Positions 6,028 through 45,631 of a DNA stretch of 64,000 nucleotides are shown piece by piece. This DNA comes from Salinivenus lutea (GTDB lineage: Bacteria > Bacteroidota > Rhodothermia > Rhodothermales > Salinibacteraceae): the NCBI GenBank assembly GCA_002894685.1, contig NCRC01000006.1, positions 62,001 through 126,000 on the forward strand, given 5' to 3'. The notes beneath the pieces are model-generated. The model had not been told where the DNA came from. It searched no databases and saw nothing but the letters and a program-made list of their open reading frames with translations. Numbering within the stretch: position 1 is the stretch's first letter; each line of letters starts with the position of its first letter. The position numbers and the translations under genes were made by a program.

Positions 6028-7425
6028 CTACCGATCCCCGTCATCGTCGCTTCGGCCCCGTCGGCCGCCGCGGTCCGAATCGCTCGACGATCCGGAGGAA
6101 CGGGAGCCGCGGGCCTGGGTGCCCGAGTCATCGGAGGACGAGGAGCGGGTGCGGGGCGAGGTCGAGCGCTCCGGCGTGGTGCGGGTGCGGCCCGAGCGCG
6201 TTCGGGTCTCGGGGGCGTTCCAGGACTCAGACGTCCACTCCCGGGGGGAGGACTCGCGCCGCTGCACCCGGTCCTCGCGGAGCTGCTCGTACAGACGCTG
6301 GTCGCGGCGGAGCTGGTCGAGGTCCAGCCGGCTCTCGATTCGAGACGTGCGGGCGGGACCGATGCGGCCGGTAGGGGCGCGGCGCAACTCCTCCGATTGC
6401 AGTCGGCCGGTGCTGTCGCGCCGAAACCGCGGGGCGGCACTGTTTCCGTCGCGGGCATTCCGCTCAGCCCCCCTCATCGGGCGGGCGGCCTGGTCGGCCC
6501 GTGCCCGATTGGTGCGGGCGCGGGCGTTCTCGTTGTCGGTGTCGCGTCCGCTTCGACGGCCCGTTCGGCGGTCCGGTGTGCGCTCGGGCTCGCGCTCCCG
6601 GACCGTGCGGTTCGCTCCGCGGTCGTTGTCGGTTCGGCCGGGGCGCGTGGCCCGACCCACCCGTCCGTTGCCGGTCCGATCCGACGAGGCCCTTCCCGTC
6701 GTGGCCCGGCGCGGGGTGTCGTCCCGATCGCTGCCGCGTACCGACCGCCCAATGCGAGCGTTGTCGTTCGTGGGGACCGACCGGCGTGCGGCGCGGCGCG
6801 CCTCGCCCGCGTCGCGGGAGACGACGTCGCGCGTGCTCTGGCCTACGGTGCCGCCGCGCGGACGGTACGTGCGGCCCGCAAACGACCGATCCTCATCGAA
6901 GTCGTCGTCGAAGTAGTAGTAATTGTTCGTGTAGTAGCGCGGGCCGAAGGGCGAGTACCCGTAGCGGTGCCACGAGGAGTAGCGCCACGGCCGGTGGTAG
7001 TAGAACGGCGACCCGAAGTGGAACGACAGCGAGAAGCGCGTCCCGGAGGGATAGAACGAGTCGTGGTAGAACGGGTCGTGGTACCAGTCGTCGAAGTAGG
7101 TGCGGTACCGGTACGGCGCGCCGTACTTGTATTTGTACTTGTACTCGTACAGGTATTCGTACTCGTCCGCGTAGGCCATCTCGTCGTAGCGATCGTCGTA
7201 GCGCACCCCCACGCCGTCGCGGTATTCGCGGCGGTACTCATCGGCGTACTGCGGCGTCTCCGCCCGGTCTGCGGTGCGGGTTTGCTGCTTGTCCGGGGCC
7301 GAGCGGCCCGTGTCAGCCGTCTGAAGCTGCGTGTAGCAGCCCGTGAGTCCCAGGGAGAGCACCACGAGAAGAACGGGAGAGACCCAGCCCCTCAGCGAGC
7401 GGGTCCAGAACGAAGCGTGAATCAT
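6028..7425 (-). CDS. Tyr-rich/Arg-rich lipoprotein of unknown function
   Basis: 465 residues. A lipoprotein signal (hydrophobic PVLLVVLSLGLTGC, lipobox LTGC) precedes a mature start CYTQLQTAD. Residues about 60-190 are extraordinarily rich in Tyr, Arg and Asp (YEYLYEYKYKYKYG, FGPRYYTNNYYYFDDDFDED). The remaining C-terminal half is low-complexity Arg/Thr/Ser/Asp, with many R-T-R and R-D-R repeats, ending in an SSSDSDRGGRRGRSDDDGDR-like tail. No enzyme motif is visible. The start at 7425 is chosen because it gives the lipobox at residue 28; a longer frame would bury the signal. The next gene upstream (7784-9133) encodes a lipoprotein with the same LTGCYT(Q/K)L signature and a similar Ser/Arg/Asp tail, so the two look like diverged paralogues. 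Confidence 0.65.
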   Translation of the reverse strand: MIHASFWTRSLRGWVSPVLLVVLSLGLTGCYTQLQTADTGRSAPDKQQTRTADRAETPQYADEYRREYRDGVGVRYDDRYDEMAYADEYEYLYEYKYKYKYGAPYRYRTYFDDWYHDPFYHDSFYPSGTRFSLSFHFGSPFYYHRPWRYSSWHRYGYSPFGPRYYTNNYYYFDDDFDEDRSFAGRTYRPRGGTVGQSTRDVVSRDAGEARRAARRSVPTNDNARIGRSVRGSDRDDTPRRATTGRASSDRTGNGRVGRATRPGRTDNDRGANRTVREREPERTPDRRTGRRSGRDTDNENARARTNRARADQAARPMRGAERNARDGNSAAPRFRRDSTGRLQSEELRRAPTGRIGPARTSRIESRLDLDQLRRDQRLYEQLREDRVQRRESSPREWTSESWNAPETRTRSGRTRTTPERSTSPRTRSSSSDDSGTQARGSRSSGSSSDSDRGGRRGRSDDDGDR

Positions 7426-29712: not shown

Positions 29713-31377
29713 TCACGCTCCGGTTAGGCGTCGGCGGAGGCCCTCTAAAAACGAGGGAGAGGTGGCGTGCGGTCCCCGAACGAGTGCGATGGGAGACGCA
29801 GTTGACGCGGAGAGGCGACCGGAAAACGAGTCGGCATCCGAGACGGACCACGAGCCAGTACGGCCGGCTCCGACGCAGATCCGGTCACTAGCGGATGCGC
29901 ACCGGGCCGCAGCGGCCTGTACCTCCGATGAGACAATCACACGTCCCTCGTACTGCTCGTCCGCCAGGCCTGCCCGATCAGCTACGTCCCACAGGAGGCG
30001 CTGTCCCCTGTGTTCGAGGGCGTCGACACTTGCGGTTCCGTCGTTGGATTGGATGGTGAGGAGGGTCAAAGTCCCAACGCCGCTCCCCTGGGCCCACTCC
30101 CGCGCTCGGCGGGCCACAAACGGGGCGTGTGGACTGTCGGCAATGAAGGCCGTCACGTCCGCCCCTTCGCCAGGGGCCCCGTCCGTACCGGGCCGGAGGA
30201 GGGTGACCTCGCACGAAACTGCGTCCAGGACGTCAGTCCAACTTGTGTCCGGGGCCTCCCCGTTCGTTCCTGGCCAGCGGCCCACGAGGTGCTGCACGGA
30301 TCGATCGGCGATTGTATTTTCCACAACGGCGGCAGTTTGGTGCGCCACAACCGCCAGGGGGGTCACGCGAAGGGCACTGCCGTCCACCGATTCGGCCAGG
30401 GCCTCTAACTGCCACTGCACCTCCTGCAGGCGATCCTGGTGTGTCTCCTTGGCCTGCGAGAGAGTGAGCTGCCGCGGCACCTCCACGACGCTGAGAAGCA
30501 GACACTCGCCGTTCGCATGGGCTCCCGCCGAGGCAGCAGCGAGCTCTACGAGGGCCCGATGGTCTGCCGTCGGGCCGTCGGCCACGGATTCATCCAGGAC
30601 GGTGAGGACGCGGTGGGGGATGTCGTCTTCGCTCAGGGATCGGCTCGCGGTGGTGCGTCCTTCCGAAGTGTGCGCGCCGTCGGCATCCGATGGCGACGGT
30701 GGAAGAAGAGAGTCCGCCCGGTCGATGGGAAACTGATCGTTTTCCCGAAGACGGTCGAGCAAAAGCTGGGCCGTGGCGGTGGTTCCCTCCCGCTCCACGG
30801 CGGCCTCCAGGTGCCGACGGGCCGCTTCGAGGTTGCCGACCGTACCCTCCAGAAGCCCGAGCAAGGTGTGGGCCTCGGGCCGTGCCTCATCCTGGGCGAT
30901 TGCCTCCTCCAGGCAGTGACGTGCCGCAGTGGTGCGGCGGTACCGGAGGTGCCACGTGGCGAGTTGCACCCACTCGTCATAGGGGGTTGCGTCGGGCGGC
31001 GCGGAGGGCTCCCGAAAGACCTGCTCCACCAGGTCGCGGAGGGCATCGAGGCTAATAGGCTTGAGCAATACGTCGACGGCGCCACGGCGCATGGCCTGCA
31101 CGGCGTTTTTGACTGTGCCGTGGGCCGTCACGATGACGACCGGGAGCTCGGGGGCCTGGCGGCGCGTGCGCTCTAGCGTCTCCAACCCGCTGAGGCCCGG
31201 CATGCGGAGGTCGAGCAGTACGAGATCGTACTCGGCCTCGCCAAGTTGTGAGAGGGCCTCGGTCCCGTTCGGCACGGTGTCGACAGTCAGGCCGATGTCT
31301 TCGAGGGCCTGCCGGAGGGTGAGGCGGACGTTTTTCTCGTCGTCGACGACGAGCACGCGGGGGGCAGTTGTAGACAT
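29713..31377 (-). CDS. Response regulator with REC-TPR-USP-USP architecture
   Basis: 554 residues and no DNA-binding domain. REC about 6-118 (phospho-Asp D56 in LVLLDLRMPG, Lys106 in LLKPISL), a TPR-like helical repeat region about 135-210 (LATWHLRYRRTTAARHCLEE, EAHTLLGLLEGTVGNLEAAR), an acidic linker, and a tandem USP pair about 254-400 and 405-545. USP1 contains LLLSVVEVPRQLTLSQA, close to LIAVSVIEVPQQTSLEQG of the permease at 23191, and both proteins end with a similar block (IALVRG... and VALARG... followed by a GL-x4-L-T/S-G tail). Nucleotide motifs are degraded in both USPs. The USP module appears to derive from the same source as the permease tail; the regulator may act by binding a protein partner. 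Confidence 0.8.
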   Translation of the reverse strand: MSTTAPRVLVVDDEKNVRLTLRQALEDIGLTVDTVPNGTEALSQLGEAEYDLVLLDLRMPGLSGLETLERTRRQAPELPVVIVTAHGTVKNAVQAMRRGAVDVLLKPISLDALRDLVEQVFREPSAPPDATPYDEWVQLATWHLRYRRTTAARHCLEEAIAQDEARPEAHTLLGLLEGTVGNLEAARRHLEAAVEREGTTATAQLLLDRLRENDQFPIDRADSLLPPSPSDADGAHTSEGRTTASRSLSEDDIPHRVLTVLDESVADGPTADHRALVELAAASAGAHANGECLLLSVVEVPRQLTLSQAKETHQDRLQEVQWQLEALAESVDGSALRVTPLAVVAHQTAAVVENTIADRSVQHLVGRWPGTNGEAPDTSWTDVLDAVSCEVTLLRPGTDGAPGEGADVTAFIADSPHAPFVARRAREWAQGSGVGTLTLLTIQSNDGTASVDALEHRGQRLLWDVADRAGLADEQYEGRVIVSSEVQAAAARCASASDRICVGAGRTGSWSVSDADSFSGRLSASTASPIALVRGPHATSPSFLEGLRRRLTGA

Positions 31378-31433: not shown

Positions 31434-32102
31434 TTACTCAAGCCGGTAGTCGGCGGGGGTGCGTACCAACGGGGACCGACTGATGTTATCCCGGTTGTAC
31501 ATCGCAGGGTCATATCCCGGCTGCAGCGCCAGCGCGGACTGGTAATAGCGCTGGGCCTCCTCGTACTGATTGCTCAGTTGCATGAGTACACCGAGGAGGT
31601 TGAACGCCTCGGGCCGCGTGGCGTCGATCGCAAAGGCCTTCTGGACGTGCTGGCGGGCCTGCTCGTAGTCCTCGTTCCGAATCCCCGCCCGGGCGTCGCC
31701 GATGTGTTTGTCGTACGCCTCCCCGGAGTTCGGGGCCTCTTGCGCGAGCGTCTGTGCGACCGTCGTCCGGATCTGTTCAGGCGTAAACGGCTTGTGGATG
31801 AAATTCTCGGCGCCCTCGCGGATCATCTCGACGGCCTGATCGACGGTTCCGTGCGCCGTGACGATGATAACCGGCAGCTCCGGGCGGCGCTCTTTGATCG
31901 CATCGAGTACGTCCCGGCCGTCCATCTCCGGCATGCGAAGATCCAGGAGGACCAGGTCGCACTTGTTCTCTTCGATGTGATCGAGAGCCACCGGCCCACT
32001 CTCGGCCGTCGTGACATGGTACTCGGCATCTTCGAGTACTTGTTTGAGGGAGAGCCGGACAGAGGCCTCGTTGTCGACGATCAGAAGTCGGGGCGTGTTC
32101 AT
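31434..32102 (-). CDS. Response regulator, REC-TPR, no DNA-binding domain
   Basis: 222 residues. REC domain about 4-118 with phospho-Asp D54 in LVLLDLRMPEMDG, Thr/Ala switch VTAHGTVDQAVEM and Lys in FIHKPFTPEQIR. A TPR-like region follows (about 130-200: ARQHVQKAFAIDATRPEAFN, LLGVLMQLSNQYEEAQRYYQ), ending in a polar tail (SPLVRTPADYRLE). It is the first gene of the minus-strand run, 56 bases before the REC-TPR-USP gene; the two look like paralogues, the second having gained the USP tail. Output is probably by protein interaction. The start at 32102 follows a structured leader. Confidence 0.9.
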   Translation of the reverse strand: MNTPRLLIVDNEASVRLSLKQVLEDAEYHVTTAESGPVALDHIEENKCDLVLLDLRMPEMDGRDVLDAIKERRPELPVIIVTAHGTVDQAVEMIREGAENFIHKPFTPEQIRTTVAQTLAQEAPNSGEAYDKHIGDARAGIRNEDYEQARQHVQKAFAIDATRPEAFNLLGVLMQLSNQYEEAQRYYQSALALQPGYDPAMYNRDNISRSPLVRTPADYRLE

Positions 32103-32124
32103 ACGGAGGTGGTTTTATAGAAAA

Positions 32125-32176
32125 GAGCGATTGCGCCCCTCGGCGGTCGTCCCCGACCGTTAATCGCTCAAATCTA
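32125..32176 (-). promoter_or_regulatory. -7 promoter element and overlapping long inverted repeat upstream of the REC-TPR gene
   Basis: TAGATTTG (minus strand, 32176-32169) matches the -7 consensus TAnnTTTG exactly. The arms GAGCGATT (32125-32132) and AATCGCTC (32162-32169), eight bases each and perfect, enclose a second perfect hairpin CGGTCG-TCCC-CGACCG (32144-32159). The far arm overlaps the -7 element and the near arm is followed on the minus strand by TTTT. This could be an operator over the transcription start or a leader stem that acts as an attenuator for the regulator operon. No matching -33 TTG was found. Confidence 0.5.
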
Positions 32177-32202
32177 GTACCAGACCGGCTTGCCCCGGCT
32201 TC

Positions 32203-32224
32203 AGGCCGACTGAGCGGCTTTTTT
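32203..32224 (+). terminator. Orphan intrinsic-terminator-like hairpin
   Basis: GCCG (32205-32208), six-base loop, CGGC (32215-32218), then TTTTTT (32219-32224); A-T and G-T pairs can extend the stem to six. It points along the plus strand, where the only upstream sequence is the nested inverted repeat and the antisense of the regulator gene, so it might end a small or antisense RNA. The stem is short. Confidence 0.35.
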
Positions 32225-32502
32225 CCTGGATTGGCTCTCGTCCATCGTGCATTCTGCACGACGTGCCGCCTCCCTGAATTGCAAAATCCAAGACGAGAGA
32301 TCGGATCGTGTCGTCGTCGATAGGAGCAGTTACTCAACGCTTTCTTCACTGAAAGTCGTCTTGCTCCCGTTTCGGCCGGCCCGTCGTCGACACAGGCGGA
32401 CACGGGGGCGGTGAGAGGTTCGCCTTTTCGAACGGGCCGACGACCTGGCCCAGCATTTGTCTGTAGTTCCATCATCGCCCAGCGGGTCTTACGCTGAGAG
32501 GT

Positions 32503-33110
32503 ATGTCCTCTGATGCTCTGTCCATTTGCTCGTCTATGGCTCCTCCCTCTGTCCGCTCGCGCCATTCGCCGCTCACCATTCTTGGGCGCGACGTCGGTGT
32601 GCTCCTCATGCTTCTCGACGTTCTCTTCCTACTCCCCCTTGCCGTGGCCCTGCTGTACGGGGAGACCTACACCGCGATGAGTTTTCTCGTGGGATCGGGC
32701 CTGAGCGCGGCCGTCGGGACGTTCCTCATTCTTCCGGACTACGGCGTGGCCGCCACGCTCTTCGACGCCGTTACCCACGCGATGACGGGACAGTCCACCG
32801 GGGGCTTTAGCACGCTCGACGACAGCATTGCGGGGTACGGGTCCTATGCCATGGAGCTGCTCCACATTCCGGCGATGCTGCTCGGGGCCATCGCGCTGCC
32901 CGTGTACTACGGCCTCCTCCAAAAGCGGTCGCTCCGGCCGCTCTGGGAGGACGTGCAGGCCCGGACGATGTGATCCTCGTCGCCATCGAGCGAAGCGGTG
33001 AGCTGCTCGTGCCAAAGGGCGACACCACGCTGCAGAGCGGCGACGTGGTTACGGTGTTGTCGCTGTCGGGCGTCACGGACAACCTCATGCGGAGCTTCGA
33101 GGCCAAATGA
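32503..33110 (+). pseudogene. Relic of trkH fused to a trkA-C (RCK_C) fragment
   Basis: The frame 32503-32973 (156 residues) begins with two hydrophobic helices (LLMLLDVLFLLPLAVALLYG), then jumps to the second filter loop of TrkH (FDAVTHAMTGQSTGGFSTLD, then DSIAGYGSYAMELLHIPAML) and ends soon after (LQKRSLRPLWEDVQAR). Loops 1, 3 and 4 of a functional K+ transporter are absent. From about 32964 a different reading frame encodes ILVAIERSGELLVPKGDTTL, then QSGDVVTVLSLSG, a typical RCK_C end, closing at TGA 33108-33110. So at least two internal deletions and a frame change joined trkH and trkA pieces. It is probably dead, though the first frame could still be translated. Confidence 0.75.
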
Positions 33111-33145
33111 CAGGGAGTGACATGACAGGGGGGACAGTCCGGCGC

Positions 33146-34519
33146 TTATTCCTCCGGAGACCCCGTGAGCCCATACCTCTTGCGCTTGCGGTAGAGGGTG
33201 GCCGGGTCGATGCCCAGCACCTCCGCGGCCCGGTCGAGCGTCTCGGTGGCCTCGACGACTCGCCGGACGTGCGCCTCCTCGATCGTCTCCAGCGACACGA
33301 GTGCGCCCACTCGTTCGGTTGGAGTCGCCTCCTCCCCGCCGGCAAGCGGCAGCTGTTCCCCGTCGATCCGCGGTTGCTTTGTCAGAATGACGACCCGCTC
33401 GATCACGTTGCGCAGCTCGCGGACGTTGCCGGGCCACGAGTGCGCCCGGAGCCCGTTCTCTGCGTCTCCGGTGAGTCCCTCGACGGGCCGGTTGTACTTG
33501 GACGAGAAATGCGCAATAAACCGACGCGCCAGCGGGAGAATGTCGTCTGGGCGCTCGCGGAGCGGGGGCACCGTGAGTTCGATCACGTTGAGCCGGTAGA
33601 GCAGGTCTTGCCGGAACGTGCCCTCGTCGACAGCGGCCTCCAGGTCCTGATTCGTCGCGGCCAGGAGCCGCACGTTCGCCGACCGCGTCACCGGGTCGCC
33701 GACACGCTCATATTCCTTGTCCTCGATGAAGCGCAACAGTTTCGGCTGGAGGCCGGGCGGCAGGTCGCCGATTTCGTCGAGCAAGAGGGTGCCCCCTTCC
33801 GCCTGCGACACGCGCCCCGGGTGGGTCTCGGTGGCCCCGGTGAACGCCCCCTTCGCGTGCCCGAAGAGCTCGCTCTCCAGCAGGTCCTTCGACAGCGACG
33901 GGCAGTGGACCGTGACGAACGGTTCGTCAGACCGCGGGCTCCACCCGTGAATGGCCCGGGCCAGGCGTCCCTTCCCGGTCCCGTGTTCGCCGCGCAGTAG
34001 CACGGTGACGTCCTCCACGGCGACCTCCCGGGCCGTGTGCACCACCTCCTGCATCGCCGGATCGGTCGGGTCGAACGGGGCATCGACCTCCTCCCGTGCC
34101 GCTCGGTCCTCGAAGAGCTCCACCTTTCGCTCCAGGTTGCGCCGCTCGGCGGCCTTCTCGGCGGCCTGCCGGACCTGCGCCGGGGTGAAGGGCTTGGGGA
34201 GGTAGTCAGTGGCTCCGCGGCGCATCGCCTCCACCGCCGAATCGATTGAGGAATGGGCCGTGATCACGAGCACTTGCAGGTGGGGCTGCTCGTCGAGCAG
34301 CTCCGGCAGGAGGTCCATCCCGGACGTGCTCGGCAGCCGCAGATCCAGAAACGCGAGGTCGTACGGACGGCGCCGAATCGCTTCGAGCGCCGATTCGGCC
34401 CCGCCTGCCTCCGTAACCTTGTAACCCTCTCCTTCCAGGCAGACTCGCAGAGAATTGCGGATGCGGGGCTCGTCGTCAATAACGAGAATGCGCAGGGGGG
34501 AAGGCACAGTTGTACCCAT
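33146..34519 (-). CDS. NtrC-family sigma-54-dependent response regulator
   Basis: 457 residues. REC domain about 10-122 (phospho-Asp D59 in LAFLDLRLPSTSG), AAA+ domain about 150-385 with Walker A GEHGTGKGRLAR (His replaces the usual Ser), GAFTGA loop in KGAFTGATETH, Walker B GGTLLLDEIGDLP and the arginine-finger region LLYRLNVIELTVPPLRERPD, and a Fis-type HTH about 415-450 (LDRAAEVLGIDPATLYRKRK). An intact GAFTGA implies contact with sigma-54, which must be encoded elsewhere. It is the only DNA-binding regulator among the three REC proteins here and is divergent from the antiporter operon. Start chosen at 34519; the longer frame is not coding-like. Confidence 0.92.
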   Translation of the reverse strand: MGTTVPSPLRILVIDDEPRIRNSLRVCLEGEGYKVTEAGGAESALEAIRRRPYDLAFLDLRLPSTSGMDLLPELLDEQPHLQVLVITAHSSIDSAVEAMRRGATDYLPKPFTPAQVRQAAEKAAERRNLERKVELFEDRAAREEVDAPFDPTDPAMQEVVHTAREVAVEDVTVLLRGEHGTGKGRLARAIHGWSPRSDEPFVTVHCPSLSKDLLESELFGHAKGAFTGATETHPGRVSQAEGGTLLLDEIGDLPPGLQPKLLRFIEDKEYERVGDPVTRSANVRLLAATNQDLEAAVDEGTFRQDLLYRLNVIELTVPPLRERPDDILPLARRFIAHFSSKYNRPVEGLTGDAENGLRAHSWPGNVRELRNVIERVVILTKQPRIDGEQLPLAGGEEATPTERVGALVSLETIEEAHVRRVVEATETLDRAAEVLGIDPATLYRKRKRYGLTGSPEE

Positions 34520-34734: not shown

Positions 34735-36363
34735 ATGATCGAATTTGAACTAATCCACAGCCTGGGGGTCATGGTGCTTGCCGCGCTGGGCGTGACCGTG
34801 GTCGCGCGGGCCGTTCGGGTGCCGAATATCGTCGCGTACATCGGGGCGGGGCTGTTGCTGGGGCCGGTCCTCGGCGTGCTGGACGTGACCCACACCATCG
34901 AGCTGATCTCGGAATTCGGAATTGTCCTCCTGCTCTTTCTGGTGGGGCTGGAGCTGAGCCTCGACAAGATCAAGGAGGTGGGCACGACGGCGTTCGTGGC
35001 GGGCGGGGTGCAGATGGGCGGCACGGCCCTGGGCGGCGGCCTGTTGGCCGGGCTCTTCGGGGTCCCGATCGTCGAAGCCATTGTGATGGCCGTGGCGGTG
35101 ATGTTCAGCAGCACGGTCGTCGTGGTCAAGCTGCTCGAAAAGCGGGGGGACCTGGAGGCTCCGTACGGACAGATCGCGGTCGGGGTGCTGCTCGTGCAGG
35201 ACCTGGTGGTGGTGTTGGTCCTCACCTTCGTGGCCGGGCTCTCGGGGCCCAATGAGCTGGCGTGGGCGGACGTGGCCTGGGGGCTGGGGCAGGCTTTTGT
35301 GGGAATGGCTCTTCTGGGGGGCGCGATCGTGGCGGCGGCCCGGTACGTATTGCCGCCCGCCATCCAGTGGATTTCAGAGATGACGGATGGGCTGTTCATC
35401 TGGAGCCTGTTCTGGTGTTTTCTGGTGGTGCTGGGGGCGGAGGCCCTGCACCTGTCGCCCGAGCTGGGGGCCTTTCTGGCCGGCATCGCCCTCGCCCAGC
35501 TGCCCCAGTGCCACGAGCTGCGCCATCGCGTGCATCCGCTCATGAACGTCTTTATCATCGTCTTCTTCGTGGCGCTCGGCCTCCAGATGGAGCTGGGGGC
35601 GGCCCTCGACCGGTGGCCCCTCGCCCTGGCGCTCACCGTCTTCGTGATGAGCATCAAGCCGCTCCTCTTGTTCGGCGTGCTCCCCCGCCTGGGGCACGAC
35701 GAGGAGACCTCGTTCCGGACCGGGGTGAGCCTGGCGCAGGTCAGTGAGTTTTCGCTCATCTTCGGCGCCCTGGCGGTCTCGACGGGCCTGATCGACGAGA
35801 CCCTGCTGTCGGTCCTCACGCTCGTGGGCCTGCTCACCTTTGCGCTGTCGGCCTTCCTGCTCCTGTACAACGACCGCCTCTACGCCGCCGTCCGCCCCTA
35901 CCGCCCGCTGGCGTGGCTGGGGGCCCGGCAGGACGCGCCGACGCGCCCCAACGACGGGATCCGCGGCCACGTCCTCGTCGTGGGCATGAACACGCTCGGC
36001 CGCTGCCTCGCCGACCGGCTGACGGCGGCGGGGGAGACCGTCGTGGCCATCGACACCGATCCCGACAAGCTCGCGCCCCTTGCGGTGCGCACCGTCCACG
36101 GCAACGCCATCCACAAAACAACGCGCGAGGAGGCCCACTGGGACGCGGCCCGCCTCATTGTCTCCACCCTCAGCATCGAAGGCACCAACAACCTGCTGGC
36201 CTACCACGCACAACGGGCCGGCGTGCCGTGCAGCATCCACGCGTTCGATCGCACCAGCGAAGAGAGCCTTCGGTCCCTCGGGGTCGATCATCTGATTCGG
36301 TCGAAGCACGAGGGGGCCCGGCGCCTGCTCCACGAATTGGAATCGAGGGAGGTGTTGGCATGA
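34735..36363 (+). CDS. CPA2 cation/proton antiporter with C-terminal RCK_N domain (KefB-like)
   Basis: 542 residues. About 12 membrane helices in 1-395 with family motifs VPNIVAYIGAGLLLGPVLGV, EFGIVLLLFLVGLELSLDKI and VMFSSTVVVVKLLEKRGDLE. A cytoplasmic NAD-binding RCK_N domain follows from about 410 (GHVLVVGMNTLGRCLADRLT) to the end; no RCK_C. CPA2 members exchange K+ or Na+ for H+. The stop shares an ATGA overlap with the next antiporter gene, so the two are co-translated and may form a heteromer. It is divergent from the sigma-54 activator, with 215 bases between. Confidence 0.92.
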   Translation: MIEFELIHSLGVMVLAALGVTVVARAVRVPNIVAYIGAGLLLGPVLGVLDVTHTIELISEFGIVLLLFLVGLELSLDKIKEVGTTAFVAGGVQMGGTALGGGLLAGLFGVPIVEAIVMAVAVMFSSTVVVVKLLEKRGDLEAPYGQIAVGVLLVQDLVVVLVLTFVAGLSGPNELAWADVAWGLGQAFVGMALLGGAIVAAARYVLPPAIQWISEMTDGLFIWSLFWCFLVVLGAEALHLSPELGAFLAGIALAQLPQCHELRHRVHPLMNVFIIVFFVALGLQMELGAALDRWPLALALTVFVMSIKPLLLFGVLPRLGHDEETSFRTGVSLAQVSEFSLIFGALAVSTGLIDETLLSVLTLVGLLTFALSAFLLLYNDRLYAAVRPYRPLAWLGARQDAPTRPNDGIRGHVLVVGMNTLGRCLADRLTAAGETVVAIDTDPDKLAPLAVRTVHGNAIHKTTREEAHWDAARLIVSTLSIEGTNNLLAYHAQRAGVPCSIHAFDRTSEESLRSLGVDHLIRSKHEGARRLLHELESREVLA

Positions 36364-37934
36364 CGGAACTCGCAATTCTTTTGGGACTGGCCGCCGTCGG
36401 CTTTGGGCTGGCGCGCTGGACGCACGTGCCGGCCATTCCGTTTTTGCTCGTGGGCGGGCTCGCGCTCAGTGCATCCGGCGCCGTGGGCGATCCTGAGTTC
36501 GTCGAGAACGTACTGTTTCTGAGCGTCTCCGTCTTGCTGTTTGTGGCAGGGACGGACCTGAGCCTCGAGCGCGTGGGGCCGTTTGCGGGCGGCGCGGTCA
36601 AAATCGGCCTTGTGCAGTTTGTAGGCCTTGCCGGGGCGGGACTCGGCATTGCGTATGGACTCGATTACGGCCCGACCGACGCCCTGTATCTGGCCCTGGC
36701 CCTGGCCGCCAGTTCGACGATCGTCGGGGTGCGCCTGCTGCAGCGCCGGCAGCAGATGTTTGAGCCGTTTGGGCGCACGGTGCTCGGGGTGCTCCTCCTG
36801 CAGGACATTCTTGTCGTGCTCCTCCTGCCCCTCCTCATCCAACTCCCGGGCGGCCCGTTAGCCATCTTCGGCAGCCTGGGCGGGACGGCCCTTCTGCTTG
36901 TCGGCGTCGGCATCGTCATGAAGGGGGTCGTGCCGCTGCTCTTAGAGAGCGAACTCGACGCCGAGACCCAGCTCCTTGCGGTGCTCGGAGTGTTGTTCGG
37001 CTTCATGGGGGCGGCCTGGTGGCTCCACGTGCCGCTCTTCGCCGCGGCCTTTCTGGCGGGCGTATCGCTCTCAGGGTTTCCGTTCAGCGGCATCGTGCAC
37101 GGGGAAATGCAGCCGCTCTACGACTTTTTCTCGGCCCTCTTTTTCGTGGCGCTGGGCGGCGCCGCGGCCCTTCCCGACCTTGCCCTGCTGGGGCACGCGG
37201 CCCTCTTCACCGGGGCCGTGCTGATAATTACTCCGCTCCTTGTCACCGTCGTGGGCGAGTGGGCCGGCCTGGTGGCGCGCCCCGCCCTGGAGAGCGGGCT
37301 GCTGCTGTCGCAGACGAGCGAGCTGTCGCTGGTGGTGGGGCTGCAGGCCCTCGTCGTCGGCCAAATTGGGGGCGAGGTGTTTTCCGTGATCGTGCTCACC
37401 ACCGTGTTTACCATGATCGCTACGCCGATCCTGACGAGCGAGGTGGTGGTGCGGGAGCTCGTGCGGTGGCACCCGTCGCGCCGCTCGGGGGCGCTGCCGG
37501 AGGTGCCGAGCAACCACGTGCTTTTGCTCGGCGGGGGGCAGAGCGTGCGTCCGGTTCTGCGCCTCCTCCGCGAATCGGACTACGAGGCGGTGGTCGTCGA
37601 CGAAGATCCGGCGGTGGTTGAGCGGCTCCGGGCCCGGGGTGTGACGTGCGTGCGGGGCGATGGCGGCGACCTCTCGGTACTCCTGGAGGCGGGGGCGGCG
37701 CAGGCCCAGGTCATCGTGTCGACCCTTCGGGATCCATCGTCGCTCGGGCCGCTGCTCGACTACGTAAGCGACCGGGTGCCCGTCCTCGTCCGTGTCTTCG
37801 AGGACGCGGAGGCCGAGTGGGTGACGGCGCGAGGGGGAACGCCCATTCCGTTTGCCCACGCCGCCGCCGATGCGTTTATGGACTGGTTTGAGCAACAGGC
37901 GCCCACGGACTCGGCCGTCGGGGATGCCAAGTAG
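36360..37934 (+). CDS. Second CPA2 antiporter with RCK_N domain
   Basis: 524 residues, related to but distinct from the preceding antiporter. About 12 helices (RWTHVPAIPFLLVGGLALSA, VLFLSVSVLLFVAGTDLSLE, LALAASSTIVGVRLLQRRQQ), then a cytoplasmic Rossmann domain from about 380 (NHVLLLGGGQSVRPVLRLLR). The membrane half is shorter and the helix-4 region (ASSTIVGVRLLQRRQ) is of the KefB/NhaK kind. The start ATG overlaps the TGA of the first gene (ATGA), a sign of coupled translation and of a two-subunit antiporter. Confidence 0.9.
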   Translation: MTELAILLGLAAVGFGLARWTHVPAIPFLLVGGLALSASGAVGDPEFVENVLFLSVSVLLFVAGTDLSLERVGPFAGGAVKIGLVQFVGLAGAGLGIAYGLDYGPTDALYLALALAASSTIVGVRLLQRRQQMFEPFGRTVLGVLLLQDILVVLLLPLLIQLPGGPLAIFGSLGGTALLLVGVGIVMKGVVPLLLESELDAETQLLAVLGVLFGFMGAAWWLHVPLFAAAFLAGVSLSGFPFSGIVHGEMQPLYDFFSALFFVALGGAAALPDLALLGHAALFTGAVLIITPLLVTVVGEWAGLVARPALESGLLLSQTSELSLVVGLQALVVGQIGGEVFSVIVLTTVFTMIATPILTSEVVVRELVRWHPSRRSGALPEVPSNHVLLLGGGQSVRPVLRLLRESDYEAVVVDEDPAVVERLRARGVTCVRGDGGDLSVLLEAGAAQAQVIVSTLRDPSSLGPLLDYVSDRVPVLVRVFEDAEAEWVTARGGTPIPFAHAAADAFMDWFEQQAPTDSAVGDAK

Positions 37935-38086
37935 GACGGAATAAGTTCACGAACGCGTCGTTGGAGGGAATTGCACTTGCATCCGCGCCCCATCATCTTA
38001 GGCTCCGAACCGTCCAGGCCAGAGGGCGTCGGGGGAGCACGTCGAGGGGCCGCTCGACCAACTGCGCATTTTGTATCCGCTACACG

Positions 38087-39427
38087 ATGAAAGTGGTCAT
38101 CATCGGCGTCGGACAGGTCGGGCGCAGCGTGGCCCACGCGCTGTCGACGGCCCACGAGGTCGTCGTGGTCGACAAAGACGCCGAGCGCCTCGACTCGGTG
38201 CGGTCCGAGACGGATGTGCTGACCTATGAAGGAAACGGGGCCAAGGTCGACGTGCTGAAGGCGGCGGGGGTGCCAGACGCCGACCTCGTGATTGGCAGCA
38301 CCAGCGACGATCAGAGCAACATTCTGATTTGCAGCACGGCCCGGGCACTTCACCGGGAGGCGTTTACCATCGCCCGCGTGGCCGAGACGGAGTACCTCGC
38401 CACGTGGTCGCAGCTGCGGGAGGCGTTCAATGTCGACTTTATGGTGGGGGCCGATCACCTCACGGCCCGCAGCATCGTGGAGGTGGCCGGCCTCCCCACG
38501 GCCCGGGATGTGGAGTATTTTGGGCAGGGGCGGGTCGTGATGGCCGAGTTTACGATTCCGGAGGAGAGCCCGGTTGCGGACCGTGTCGTCCAGAATCTCA
38601 ACCTGAACGAGGGAGTGAACCTCGTCGCTACCTTCAGCGACGAGACGATGGAGATTGTACGCGGGGCGACGCGACTCCGGGCGGGCATTCGGCTGCTGGT
38701 GGTGGGGCGGCCGAGCCAGGTGGAGCGGTTTGCGATGACGCTTACCCCTCAGGTTCGACGACAAAAGATCCGTCACGTTCTCATTCTCGGCGGGGGCGAG
38801 ATCGGGTATCAGACGGCGCGTTTGTTTGAGCAGCGCGGCCTGGAGCCGCGCCTTGTCGAACAGGACCCGGAGCGCGCCCAGGTGTTGGCCCGGGAGCTTC
38901 CCGACACGCTGGTGCTGCAAGATGACGCCATGGACCCGTCGTTCCTGCGCCGCCAGGGCGTAGCGGACGCCGACCTCGTGGTGTCGGCCCTCACGCCCGA
39001 CGAGCGCAACCTGCTGACGTCTGTTCTGGGCCGGGAGCTGGGGGCGTCGCAGGTCGTCTCGGTGGTCCACAACAAAAAATACGAGTCGGTCTTTGCCAGC
39101 AGCGGCATCGACGTGACGATCCATCCGCGCCGAGAAGTCATCGAGGAAATCCTTCGCCACACCCGCACACGGGGCGTTGAGAAAATTACGTTCATCGAGG
39201 GCGACCGGGGAGAGGTGGTGGAAGTAGAGCTCGCGGACGACAGTCGTCTGACGGGGCGCCCGCTTCAGGAGGCCGCCCAGGACGTGCCCCACAATTTTGT
39301 GCTCGGGGCCCTCATTCGGGAGGATGAGGTGCTCATTCCACGCGGGAAGACGGTGCTTCGAGGGGGCGACCATCTCGTCCTGTTCGTGGACGCAGACGTT
39401 GCGGACGAGGTGTTGGGGGCCATATGA
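38087..39427 (+). CDS. trkA: Trk potassium uptake regulatory protein TrkA (two RCK units)
   Basis: 446 residues, the usual length. Two RCK_N-RCK_C units: the first has VIIGVGQVGRSVAHAL with the acidic residue DKD at the end of beta-2, and RCK_C about 145-225; the second has HVLILGGGEIGYQTARLFEQ and RCK_C about 365-445 (ELADDSRLTGRPLQEAAQDV, IPRGKTVLRGGDHLVLFVDA). It forms the cytoplasmic nucleotide-sensing ring of Trk. The stop TGA overlaps the trkH ATG (ATGA). Start chosen at 38087; the frame upstream is Arg/Ser-rich and not protein-like. Confidence 0.95.
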   Translation: MKVVIIGVGQVGRSVAHALSTAHEVVVVDKDAERLDSVRSETDVLTYEGNGAKVDVLKAAGVPDADLVIGSTSDDQSNILICSTARALHREAFTIARVAETEYLATWSQLREAFNVDFMVGADHLTARSIVEVAGLPTARDVEYFGQGRVVMAEFTIPEESPVADRVVQNLNLNEGVNLVATFSDETMEIVRGATRLRAGIRLLVVGRPSQVERFAMTLTPQVRRQKIRHVLILGGGEIGYQTARLFEQRGLEPRLVEQDPERAQVLARELPDTLVLQDDAMDPSFLRRQGVADADLVVSALTPDERNLLTSVLGRELGASQVVSVVHNKKYESVFASSGIDVTIHPRREVIEEILRHTRTRGVEKITFIEGDRGEVVEVELADDSRLTGRPLQEAAQDVPHNFVLGALIREDEVLIPRGKTVLRGGDHLVLFVDADVADEVLGAI

Positions 39428-40923
39428 TTGTCGGTCGTCGCTTGCGTCGCGTGTGCAGCGTACTGGGGCCTGTTCTTAAGTGGTTTGCGGCGCTCTTTCT
39501 GGTGCCGATCGCCACGGCGCTCTACCACGGCGAGCCCGTGGGGCCCTTCCTCGCCCCCCTCGCCGTCTCGTTTGCCCTCGGCGCGGCGGGCGAATGGGTG
39601 GGGCGCGACAGCGATCTCACCGTCGACGACGGGTTTTTGCTCGTCACGCTCACCTGGATCGGGGTGTCGCTTCTGGGGAGCATTCCCTATCTCATGAGCG
39701 GCACCGGGAGCTTTGCGGTGCCGGTGAACGCGATCTTCGAGAGCTTCAGCGGCTTCTCGGCCACCGGGTCCACAATCCTGCTGGACATCTCCATCGAAAA
39801 GCACGGGGCGGCGCTCATGCTCTGGCGACAACTCACGCAGTGGGTGGCCGGCATGGGCATCCTCGCGCTGGCGGTGGCCGTCCTGCCGCGCCTGTCGGCC
39901 GGAGGGGCCCAGTTCCTCGACGCGGAGGTGCCGGGGCCGCGCCTGGAGCGCCTCACGCCCCACATTGCGGAGACGGCCCGGCGCCTGTGGCTGCTGTACC
40001 TCGGGTGCTCGGTGGTGCTTCTGGTCCTGCTGCTGGGCGTGCACTACGGCGGATTGGCGCCCAACATGACGCCCTATCAGGCCCTGGCACACGTGTTTAC
40101 GACCATCCCCTCCGGCGGATTTTCCCCCAAGGCGCGGAGCATTGAGGCGTTCGCGCCGGCGGTGCAGTGGATCATTATCCCGTTCATGTTTGTGGCGGCG
40201 ATGAACTTCACGCTGCTCTGGCAGACGATCTTTTCCGACCCGAAGGCCCCCGCCCGCGATCCGGAGTTTCGGGTCTATCTGTCGATTTGTGCGGGGGGAA
40301 GCCTGCTGGTGAGCCTCATGCTGTGGGGCGACGGGCAGTTCGCCACCCTCGAGGAGACGGTCCGGCAGGGCACGTTCCAGACCGCCACGCTGCTCACGAC
40401 GACCGGCTACGCGAGCACTGACTTTGCCGTCTGGGGCGAAGAGGTCCTTGCCGTCCTGCTCCTTCTGATGTTTGCGAGCGGGTGCGTGGGAAGCACGTCC
40501 GGCGGCCTCAAGCTCATGCGCTGGATCGTCGGGATGAAGGTCATCGGGCGGGAGCTCTTTCAGATGATTCACCCCTCGTCCGTGCGGCCCATGTGGCTGG
40601 GGCGGCGGACGGTCAAAGAGCCGGTGGTGCGCGGCATTCTGGTGGTGATTCTTACGTACCTGCTGCTGGTGGTGGGGGGGACCGGGGTTGTGGCCGTGGA
40701 CGCCTACCGGGCCGGGGTGGACATGGCCCTCGGCGAGGCCCTGACCGGCACGCTGGCCGTGCTGGGGAATATCGGGCCGGGCTTCGGCACGCTCGGGCCC
40801 ATGGGCGGATTCGAGGCGCTGCCGGCCACGACGAAGGTGTTCATGTGCCTGCTGATGGTGGCCGGGCGGCTGGAGGTGATGACATTTCTCGTTGTGCTGG
40901 CGCCCAGCTACTGGCGAGGGTGA
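39424..40923 (+). CDS. trkH: Trk potassium transporter membrane subunit TrkH
   Basis: 499 residues. The four filter loops are present: FESFSGFSATGSTIL, HVFTTIPSGGFSPKA, ATLLTTTGYASTDF and LAVLGNIGPGFGTLG. The protein begins with a short cytoplasmic Arg-rich stretch (MIVGRRLRRVC) and helix one, and has the longer TrkH N-terminal helix pair rather than the KtrB layout. Four-base overlap with trkA gives a coupled Trk pair. A second K+ uptake system (KtrAB) lies 12 kb away, on the opposite strand. Confidence 0.95.
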   Translation: MIVGRRLRRVCSVLGPVLKWFAALFLVPIATALYHGEPVGPFLAPLAVSFALGAAGEWVGRDSDLTVDDGFLLVTLTWIGVSLLGSIPYLMSGTGSFAVPVNAIFESFSGFSATGSTILLDISIEKHGAALMLWRQLTQWVAGMGILALAVAVLPRLSAGGAQFLDAEVPGPRLERLTPHIAETARRLWLLYLGCSVVLLVLLLGVHYGGLAPNMTPYQALAHVFTTIPSGGFSPKARSIEAFAPAVQWIIIPFMFVAAMNFTLLWQTIFSDPKAPARDPEFRVYLSICAGGSLLVSLMLWGDGQFATLEETVRQGTFQTATLLTTTGYASTDFAVWGEEVLAVLLLLMFASGCVGSTSGGLKLMRWIVGMKVIGRELFQMIHPSSVRPMWLGRRTVKEPVVRGILVVILTYLLLVVGGTGVVAVDAYRAGVDMALGEALTGTLAVLGNIGPGFGTLGPMGGFEALPATTKVFMCLLMVAGRLEVMTFLVVLAPSYWRG

Positions 40924-43498: not shown

Positions 43499-45631
43499 AT
43501 GGCCTCAGGATCCTCCCTCCAGAAGGACCTGACGCTCTACGACGTCTACGCGATTAGCACGGGGGCGATGTTTAGCTCCGGCTTTTTCCTGCTCCCGGGC
43601 ATCGCGGCGGCGGAGACGGGGCCGTCGGTGATTCTCGCGTATCTCGTTGCGGGTCTGCTCATTCTGCCCTCTATGTACAGCATGGCGGAGCTGTCGACGG
43701 CCATGCCGAAGGCGGGGGGCACGTACTACTTTCTCGACCGCGCGCTCGGCCCCCTCGCAGGCACGGTCGGCGGCCTGGGCACGTGGCTCGCGCTCGTCTT
43801 CAAAAGCGCGTTTGCGCTGATTGGGATGGGGGCGTACCTCGCCATCTACGTGGAGGTGCCCATCAAGCCGCTGGCCGCGGCGCTCACCGTGGCGTTTGGG
43901 GTCCTCAACATTGTGGGGGCCAAGGAAAGCAGCTGGCTCCAACGCATCCTCGTGACAGTGCTCGTGACGGTGCTCGCCTTCTACGCCGCACAGGGCATCT
44001 TCTCGGTGTGGGGCGGGCAGAGCGCCGTCGGCGGGGCGGCGGGGGAGTTCAGCCCCTTCTTCACGGAGGGGGCGCGCGGCTTCCTCGCCACCATCGGCAT
44101 CGTGTTCGTGTCGTACGCCGGGCTCACCAAGGTGGCGAGCGTGGCCGAGGAGGTGAAAAACCCCGACCGCAACATTCCGCTGGGCATGATCCTGTCGCTG
44201 CTTACGGCGACGGCGATCTACGTGCTGGGCGTGGCCATCATGGTGGCCATCCTCCCGGCTTCGGACCTCCACGCCGACCTCACGCCGGTGTACACCTCCG
44301 GGGAGGTCTTCTTCAACTGGCTGCCCTACGCGCTGGGGCCGATCCTCATCGTCGTGGCGGCCGTGGCCGCGTTTGCCTCCACCGGCAATGCGGGCATCAT
44401 GTCCGCCTCGCGCTATCCGCTGGCCATGGCGCGCGACCGCCTCTTGCCCGACAGCTTCGCCACCATTGGGCGGTTCAACACGCCCACCCGCTCGATTCTG
44501 GTGACGGTGGCGCTCATGCTCGTCATCATCTTTGTGCTGTCCGAGGAGGGGGTGGCCAAGCTGGCCAGTGCGTTTCAGTTGCTCATCTTTGCGCTTCTCA
44601 ACTTTGCGGTCATCGTGATGCGGGAGAGCGGCATTCCCTCCTACGCGCCGGGCTACCGCTCCCCGCTCTATCCCTGGATGCAGGTGGCCGGCATTGCCAT
44701 CCCGTTCTTCCTCATTTCGGAGATGGGCACGCTCGCCATCGTCTTCACCGGAATCGTGGTGCTCTTCGGGATCGGGTGGTACTTCTACTACGCCCGCACC
44801 GTCCCGCGCGAGGGGGCCATCTTTCACCTGTTCGCCCGCCTGGGGCGGCAGCGCTACGACGGCCTCGACCGCGAACTGCAGACGATTCTGGAAGAGAAGG
44901 GCGTGGGGCACGACACCGCCTTCGACCGGCTCGTGGCCCGCTCGGACGTCATTCACCTCGATGAGCCGAAGCTGTACGAGGATGTGGTGGAGGAGGTGGC
45001 CGGACGCCTGGCCGATCAGTACGGCATCTCCACCGAGACGCTGAAGCATGGCTTTTTGGAGGGCGCGCCCTACAGTGCCGTGTCGGTGTCCCACGGGGCG
45101 GCCCTGCCCTACTGCCGGCTCGACGGGATCGAGGAGCCGAAGATGGTGATGGTGCATTGCCAGTCGGGCATCTGCGTCAACCTGAAGGACGACATTGAAG
45201 AGATCGACCTGTCCGAGCCGGTCTATGCCTTCTTCTTCCTGGTCAGTCCGAAGGACGACGAGGGGGAGCACCTCCGCACGCTGGCGACGCTCGCCAATCG
45301 GGTCGACGAGGAGCAATTCCTGGTCGAGTGGCGCGCGGCGACCGACGAGCAGGAAGTAAAAGAGAGCCTGCTGCACCACGAGCGCTACCTCACGCTCCAC
45401 CTGCTGTCGGGGACGAACACGGAGGAGTTCATCGACCGCTCGGTCTCGGAGCTCAACCTGCCGGCGGGGGTGCTCGTGGCGCTCGTGCGTCGGGACGAAC
45501 AGATCCTCGTGCCGTCGGGCACGACGACGCTGGAGGAGGGCGACCGGGTGACGATCATCGGCAATCCCGCCGGCATCCAGCGCCTCTACGAGCTGTACCG
45601 GACCGGGGAGCGAGAGGGCGTCGTGAAGTAG
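43499..45631 (+). CDS. APC permease fused to EIIA-like and RCK_C domains
   Basis: 710 residues. Permease about 1-440 (AISTGAMFSSGFFLLPGIAA; the motif has Ser-Ser in place of Gly-Ala). The tail has a PTS EIIA type-2-like domain about 465-620 (EEVAGRLADQYGISTETLKH, GAALPYCRLDGIEEPKMVMV, PVYAFFFLVSPKDDEGEHLR) and an RCK_C domain about 635-700 (LNLPAGVLVALVRRDEQILV, PSGTTTLEEGDRVTIIG). In PtsN-like proteins the equivalent of 'GAALPY' reads 'GIAIPH', with the phosphorylated His; here that residue is Tyr538. The domain is therefore likely a non-phosphorylated sensor. Followed 98 bases later by an outer-membrane protein gene. Confidence 0.88.
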   Translation: MASGSSLQKDLTLYDVYAISTGAMFSSGFFLLPGIAAAETGPSVILAYLVAGLLILPSMYSMAELSTAMPKAGGTYYFLDRALGPLAGTVGGLGTWLALVFKSAFALIGMGAYLAIYVEVPIKPLAAALTVAFGVLNIVGAKESSWLQRILVTVLVTVLAFYAAQGIFSVWGGQSAVGGAAGEFSPFFTEGARGFLATIGIVFVSYAGLTKVASVAEEVKNPDRNIPLGMILSLLTATAIYVLGVAIMVAILPASDLHADLTPVYTSGEVFFNWLPYALGPILIVVAAVAAFASTGNAGIMSASRYPLAMARDRLLPDSFATIGRFNTPTRSILVTVALMLVIIFVLSEEGVAKLASAFQLLIFALLNFAVIVMRESGIPSYAPGYRSPLYPWMQVAGIAIPFFLISEMGTLAIVFTGIVVLFGIGWYFYYARTVPREGAIFHLFARLGRQRYDGLDRELQTILEEKGVGHDTAFDRLVARSDVIHLDEPKLYEDVVEEVAGRLADQYGISTETLKHGFLEGAPYSAVSVSHGAALPYCRLDGIEEPKMVMVHCQSGICVNLKDDIEEIDLSEPVYAFFFLVSPKDDEGEHLRTLATLANRVDEEQFLVEWRAATDEQEVKESLLHHERYLTLHLLSGTNTEEFIDRSVSELNLPAGVLVALVRRDEQILVPSGTTTLEEGDRVTIIGNPAGIQRLYELYRTGEREGVVK

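Follow-up and report, generated by a model that had tools for sequence, protein, structure and literature searches.

A composite of two truncated potassium-uptake genes lies on the forward strand at 32503–33110 of the window, that is, the whole 64,000-nucleotide stretch of Salinivenus lutea DNA analysed here. The first piece of this relic, trkH', is an open frame of 156 codons that runs from an ATG at 32503 to a TGA at 32971–32973. The second, trkA', occupies 32961–33110, is read in the −1 frame relative to trkH' and ends with a TGA at 33108–33110. The TGA closing trkH' overlaps a GTG of the TrkA frame (32970–32972). In Pfam, the 156-residue frame matches TrkH with an E-value of 9e-13 (47.9 bits, the cut-off being 27), and the match covers only positions 151–251 of the 502 in the profile. 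The −1 frame, read from 32970, matches TrkA_C (E 7.9e-8, positions 29–68 of 71) and includes the ILVAIERSGELLVPKGDTTL of an RCK_C end. NCBIfam assigns the same family names at scores far below the family cut-offs. The preliminary description of this DNA, made from the sequence alone, had reported a composite trkH/trkA-C at these positions with a clear RCK_C end in a different downstream frame; its coordinates and quoted residues proved exact.

To define what has been retained, we fitted the relic, with jumps permitted, to an alignment of eight intact TrkH proteins that represent its closest type. The N-terminal fragment (32503–32718) comprises the start codon and the first two transmembrane helixes, alignment columns 23–69. 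A junction scan places the first deletion junction at 32718/32719. It is in frame, and about 171 residues (columns 70–240, about 0.5 kb) are gone; the cut is uncertain over some 3–4 residues, with cuts after residue 69 or 72 scoring equally. The central fragment (32719–32970, columns 241–324), supported by both Pfam and the jump alignment, carries the second selectivity-filter loop TGQSTGGFSTLDDSI, aligned as TGQSTGGFST, together with the helix that follows. The frame had been credited with the first two helixes and the second filter loop only, so that the helix after the filter is to be added. Against the solved TrkH chain 4j9u_A, residues 204–276 are matched and residues 8–33 are matched weakly. 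TrkH homology stops after the ATG at 32968–32970.

The jump alignment places the second deletion junction at 32961–32970, where CCGGACGATG is readable in both frames: one gives TrkH R-T-M, as in Haloferax, and the other gives TrkA P-D-D. This overlap is possibly a microhomology, such as would be left behind by a deletion at a short repeat. Aligned with intact relatives, trkA' corresponds to TrkA columns 180–225 of 228, with homology from about 32961 to 33107. That is, it represents the last 46–48 residues of a TrkA. The spacer between TrkH and TrkA in intact relatives measures 24 to 122 bases (seven loci). Sized from such loci, the second deletion would have taken the TrkH C-terminus, the spacer, and TrkA residues 1 to about 172–180, some 1.2–1.3 kb. 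No direct repeats marking an insertion were found around the relic. One imperfect 14-nt inverted-repeat pair, 656 nt apart, was considered as an insertion mark and is taken to be chance.

A functional TrkH (PF02386) has four M1-pore-M2 repeats with four filter loops, of which the second alone could be aligned in the relic. Descent from TrkH (PF02386) is indicated by significant homology over the retained part. A TrkA/RCK protein combines TrkA_N with TrkA_C, and no TrkA_N domain was matched in the relic by Pfam. Compared with intact relatives, two large deletions disable the pair, and the second of them is not in frame; the interiors of trkH' and trkA' contain neither point stops nor frameshifts. 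A chance origin is excluded, as the two significant domain matches lie on one strand in the order found in all 10 intact loci examined (see below). Because three of the four TrkH pore filter loops and the whole TrkA NAD-binding domain are gone, the relic is reckoned to be non-functional, and its product should do nothing now. Judging from the known TrkH fold, the fused helix would presumably bring the surviving filter loop to the wrong face of the membrane.

A protein scan with one genome per species found 108 relatives of the relic TrkH, 80 of which were kept. The closest six, at 60–72% identity, come from five haloarchaea and Aliifodinibius salipaludis (Balneolaceae); the next stands at 48%. 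Over 79 residues, the central fragment and Haloferax TrkH share 73% identity. Across the phylum, 116 of 394 genomes match at E ≤ 0.001 and, the source genome aside, only two Balneolaceae genomes reach 56–60%, the others being at or below 48%. Within the order, matches at 1e-8 occur in 11 of 114 genomes, distant ones (39–46%) once the source genome is set aside, and no intact copy of the relic-type pair was found in the 113 other genomes. The plasmid scan gave 51 matching records, including three at 60–80%: one from Halobacterium hubeiense and two Halalkalicoccus jeotgali plasmids. At the DNA level, three of 41 genomes of relatives matched at E ≤ 0.001, namely the relic's own genome and two others with matches of 38–63 bases that are not the gene; the relic DNA thus has no counterpart in the rest of the genus. 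Among virus contigs, 11 stretches fit a search pattern and none encodes a relative.

A tree of 45 rows, the relic included, was drawn from 115 passing candidate proteins, the relic and six extra rows; excluded were two plasmid TrkH whose start codons lie late and L006, an apparent duplicate. The relic, which occupies 25% of the tree columns, joins haloarchaeal and Balneolaceae TrkH in a 10-row clade with support of 100/100. Its position as sister to the haloarchaeal rows is indecisive (94/65), and the test did not reject a grouping with Balneolaceae (p-AU 0.165). Those TrkH proteins of the host genus that the tree contained, including the intact one encoded at 39424–40923, are placed elsewhere. 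In all 10 relic-clade loci examined, trkA lies directly behind trkH and on its strand (two of the loci, L006 and L022, are probably from one genome). The usual TrkA in the clade is intact but short, at about 220 residues. The pair had been described as a once complete TrkH and TrkA collapsed by deletions. Pfam, the alignment and the gene order of the relatives bear this out, but the clade and the want of an intact copy in the order indicate that the lost pair was not of the host's resident type.

Thus, the relic is very probably the pseudogene of a haloarchaeal/Balneolaceae-type trkH-trkA operon, most likely gained horizontally and then destroyed by two deletions. A formerly whole operon in this genome is suggested by the relatives; no intact parent was found in the genus. 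We next consider other origins. The RCK_C piece might derive from another RCK gene, such as the Lrp/AsnC-type regulator of the haloarchaeal trk cassettes, making the composite a fusion of unrelated genes. The 46 residues do match the Halalkalicoccus regulator better than that organism's TrkA (49.3 against 43.1 bits), such regulators do carry TrkA_C, and the source genome has 19 TrkA_C matches. Nevertheless, the best match of trkA' is a TrkA, that of Aliifodinibius, at 53.5 bits, and Haloferax TrkA outscores its regulator (49.7 against 43.1 bits). Moreover, the regulator lies upstream and on the opposite strand in the two annotated plasmid cassettes, whereas the relic shows the trkH-then-trkA order of the 10 loci. 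A fusion of unrelated genes is therefore unlikely.

Still less probable is that the 156-residue frame is a real small gene, perhaps GTGA-coupled to the 46-residue RCK_C peptide and acting as a small membrane regulator. Such a gene would fit with a trkH' that is open from ATG to stop, its first deletion being in frame, with the GTG/TGA overlap at 32970–32973, and with the good conservation of the retained residues. There is also a precedent: an excerpt of PMC11078007 describes a short Thermotoga maritima trkA, once called a pseudogene, that proved functional. The Thermotoga gene, however, encodes a short TrkA and not a piece of one, short TrkAs being normal in the relic clade. Furthermore, the frame is present in only one genome among the 114 of the order, the RCK_C fragment begins after position 28 of the 71 in the domain, and a single filter loop of four is left. 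The preliminary description held that the same short frame conserved in a related strain would speak for a real gene; in DNA and protein searches, no relative has the frame. Lastly, misjoining in the source genome, a draft of 76 contigs, is a very improbable origin of the deletions, since the relic sits well inside contig C46 (at about position 94,500), no further full-length gene of this type is present in the assembly to be collapsed, and two misjoins within one gene pair would be required.

The genes flanking the relic are common to only two congeners, G011 and G012. The response-regulator gene at 29713–31377 is found at E ≤ 1e-30 in four of 27 family genomes, being full in the source genome, G012 and G011, and matched over about 125 residues only in G023. 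In G012 (locus L127), the sigma-54 activator gene ends at 6195 and the response regulator begins at 6415; between them, both the relic and the small response regulator of 31434–32102 are absent. In G011, the relic site falls between the ends of two contigs. The suggested search for an intact trkAH at this place in a relative thus finds an empty site in one congener and a break in the assembly of the other, and an intact trkH-trkA at the site was seen in none of the relatives examined.

A second collapsed pair is found in G011. Inside contig C17 (L129, 6853–8140), the orthologue of the window's intact trkA-trkH has TrkA residues 75–132 joined out of frame to TrkH residues 128–499, with about 355 TrkA residues and 127 TrkH residues missing. 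This collapse is a separate event in a different pair of the same island, and a misassembly is possible in a genome that is 83% complete and in about 130 contigs.

Several other features of the neighborhood were observed. In the response regulators at 29713–31377 and 31434–32102, TPR repeats replace the DNA-binding output; the former also resembles a universal stress protein, but only weakly and below the cut-off (Pfam E 0.48). Upstream of the latter is a palindrome, CGTGCATTCTGCACG (32246–32262), the core of which has one exact occurrence in the window. In G012, a near copy, ATCGTGCATTCTGCATGG, stands ahead of the next response regulator (L127, about 6260), and the palindrome is possibly a binding site. 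Two Na_H_Exchanger/TrkA_N antiporter genes (34735–37934) separate the sigma-54 activator from trkA in the window. In their place, G012 has a ribbon-helix-helix and PIN-domain pair (L127, 3348–4825) that looks like a toxin–antitoxin module. Farther along, at 43499–45631, an amino acid permease is fused to a PTS_EIIA_2-like domain and a TrkA_C domain.

The state of decay was gauged from conserved positions. Seven haloarchaeal proteins agree at 81 of the 133 TrkH columns retained; the relic differs from them at 18 of these, and two intact Balneolaceae proteins differ at 26 and 27. All nine intact proteins agree at 53 columns, and here the relic differs at six, four of them in the N-terminal segment. 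This conservation, with fragments free of point stops and frameshifts, argues that the gene was under selection until late. The collapse looks recent relative to the divergence. Codon-position counts of the relic against distant intact genes mostly reflect selection before the loss.

Three systems invite comparison with the relic. The haloarchaeal trk cassette, as found on Halobacterium hubeiense plasmid pSTJ002 and Halalkalicoccus jeotgali B3 plasmid 4, has the order regulator, usp, trkA, trkH, trkA, usp, trkH. Its trkH belongs to the relic's clade and, as in the relic, has a trkA, here a short one, immediately behind it. Identity to the cassette trkH over the retained columns is mostly 58–63%, the Halalkalicoccus gene being at 54–57%. 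The cassette genes are complete, whereas the relic consists of fragments of a trkH and the following trkA with no other cassette gene recognised alongside; a search of 32100–33200 for remnants of such genes gave, beyond TrkH, TrkA and RCK_C, only weak or antisense matches. The haloarchaeal plasmid loci L136 (1718–2461) and L137 (1137–1880) encode AsnC-type regulators with a terminal TrkA_C, beside trk cassettes. Variable islands with TrkAH genes are described in Halorubrum ezzemoulense in an excerpt of PMC11078007. The TrkH-TrkA pair of Aliifodinibius salipaludis shares the relic's clade and gene order and gives the best match of its TrkA end but, unlike the relic, is intact; identity over the retained TrkH columns is 52%. 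Finally, the resident TrkA-TrkH of the island (37961–40923) belongs to the same superfamily and function class. It differs in being of another clade, in having trkA before trkH, in its long two-RCK TrkA, and in being intact.

At the level of the island, Mongodin and colleagues are said to have described, in 2005, a "hypersalinity island" that Salinibacter ruber shares with haloarchaea. We take that island to resemble the one holding the relic, both presumably bearing potassium and amino-acid transporters. The S. ruber hypersalinity island is also mentioned in an excerpt of PMC5624296. A trkH-trkA relic of the present kind was not found among the listed literature on trkH pseudogenes, in general or in Salinibacter, the S. 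ruber genome paper aside.

The following history is proposed. A trkH-trkA pair would have been gained within an island of potassium and amino-acid transport genes; horizontal gain is the simplest account, and a direct transfer from haloarchaea is likely. Two deletions, possibly between short direct repeats, would then have destroyed the pair. We infer the transfer and its direction, as well as the mechanism and order of the deletions. The cell had been thought to be left with KtrAB and one intact TrkAH. Instead, TrkH is matched five times in the source genome, by the relic and by four full-length TrkH/KtrB-type frames, i.e., KtrB and TrkH in the window plus single genes on contigs C3 and C7. 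In the order, 89 of the 114 genomes show one or more TrkH matches. With four other such genes remaining, redundancy is the likely reason for the loss of the gained pair.

A broader suggestion, offered tentatively and rather less likely to hold than to fail, is that potassium-uptake pairs moving between haloarchaea and Salinibacter-like bacteria are repeatedly gained in the island and erased by deletions running from one member of a pair into its partner, the relic and the G011 collapse being two independent snapshots. Variable islands with TrkAH genes are described in Halorubrum ezzemoulense in an excerpt of PMC11078007.

For annotation, neither the 156-residue "TrkH family protein" nor the 46-residue RCK_C piece is to be counted as a transporter. 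As a dead gene of an ordinary kind, the relic makes a minor point of genome evolution: an archaeal-type potassium-uptake pair was apparently taken up and then discarded by a genome with several others. Salt-in bacteria and haloarchaea share transport genes, and the relic would show the loss side of that exchange.
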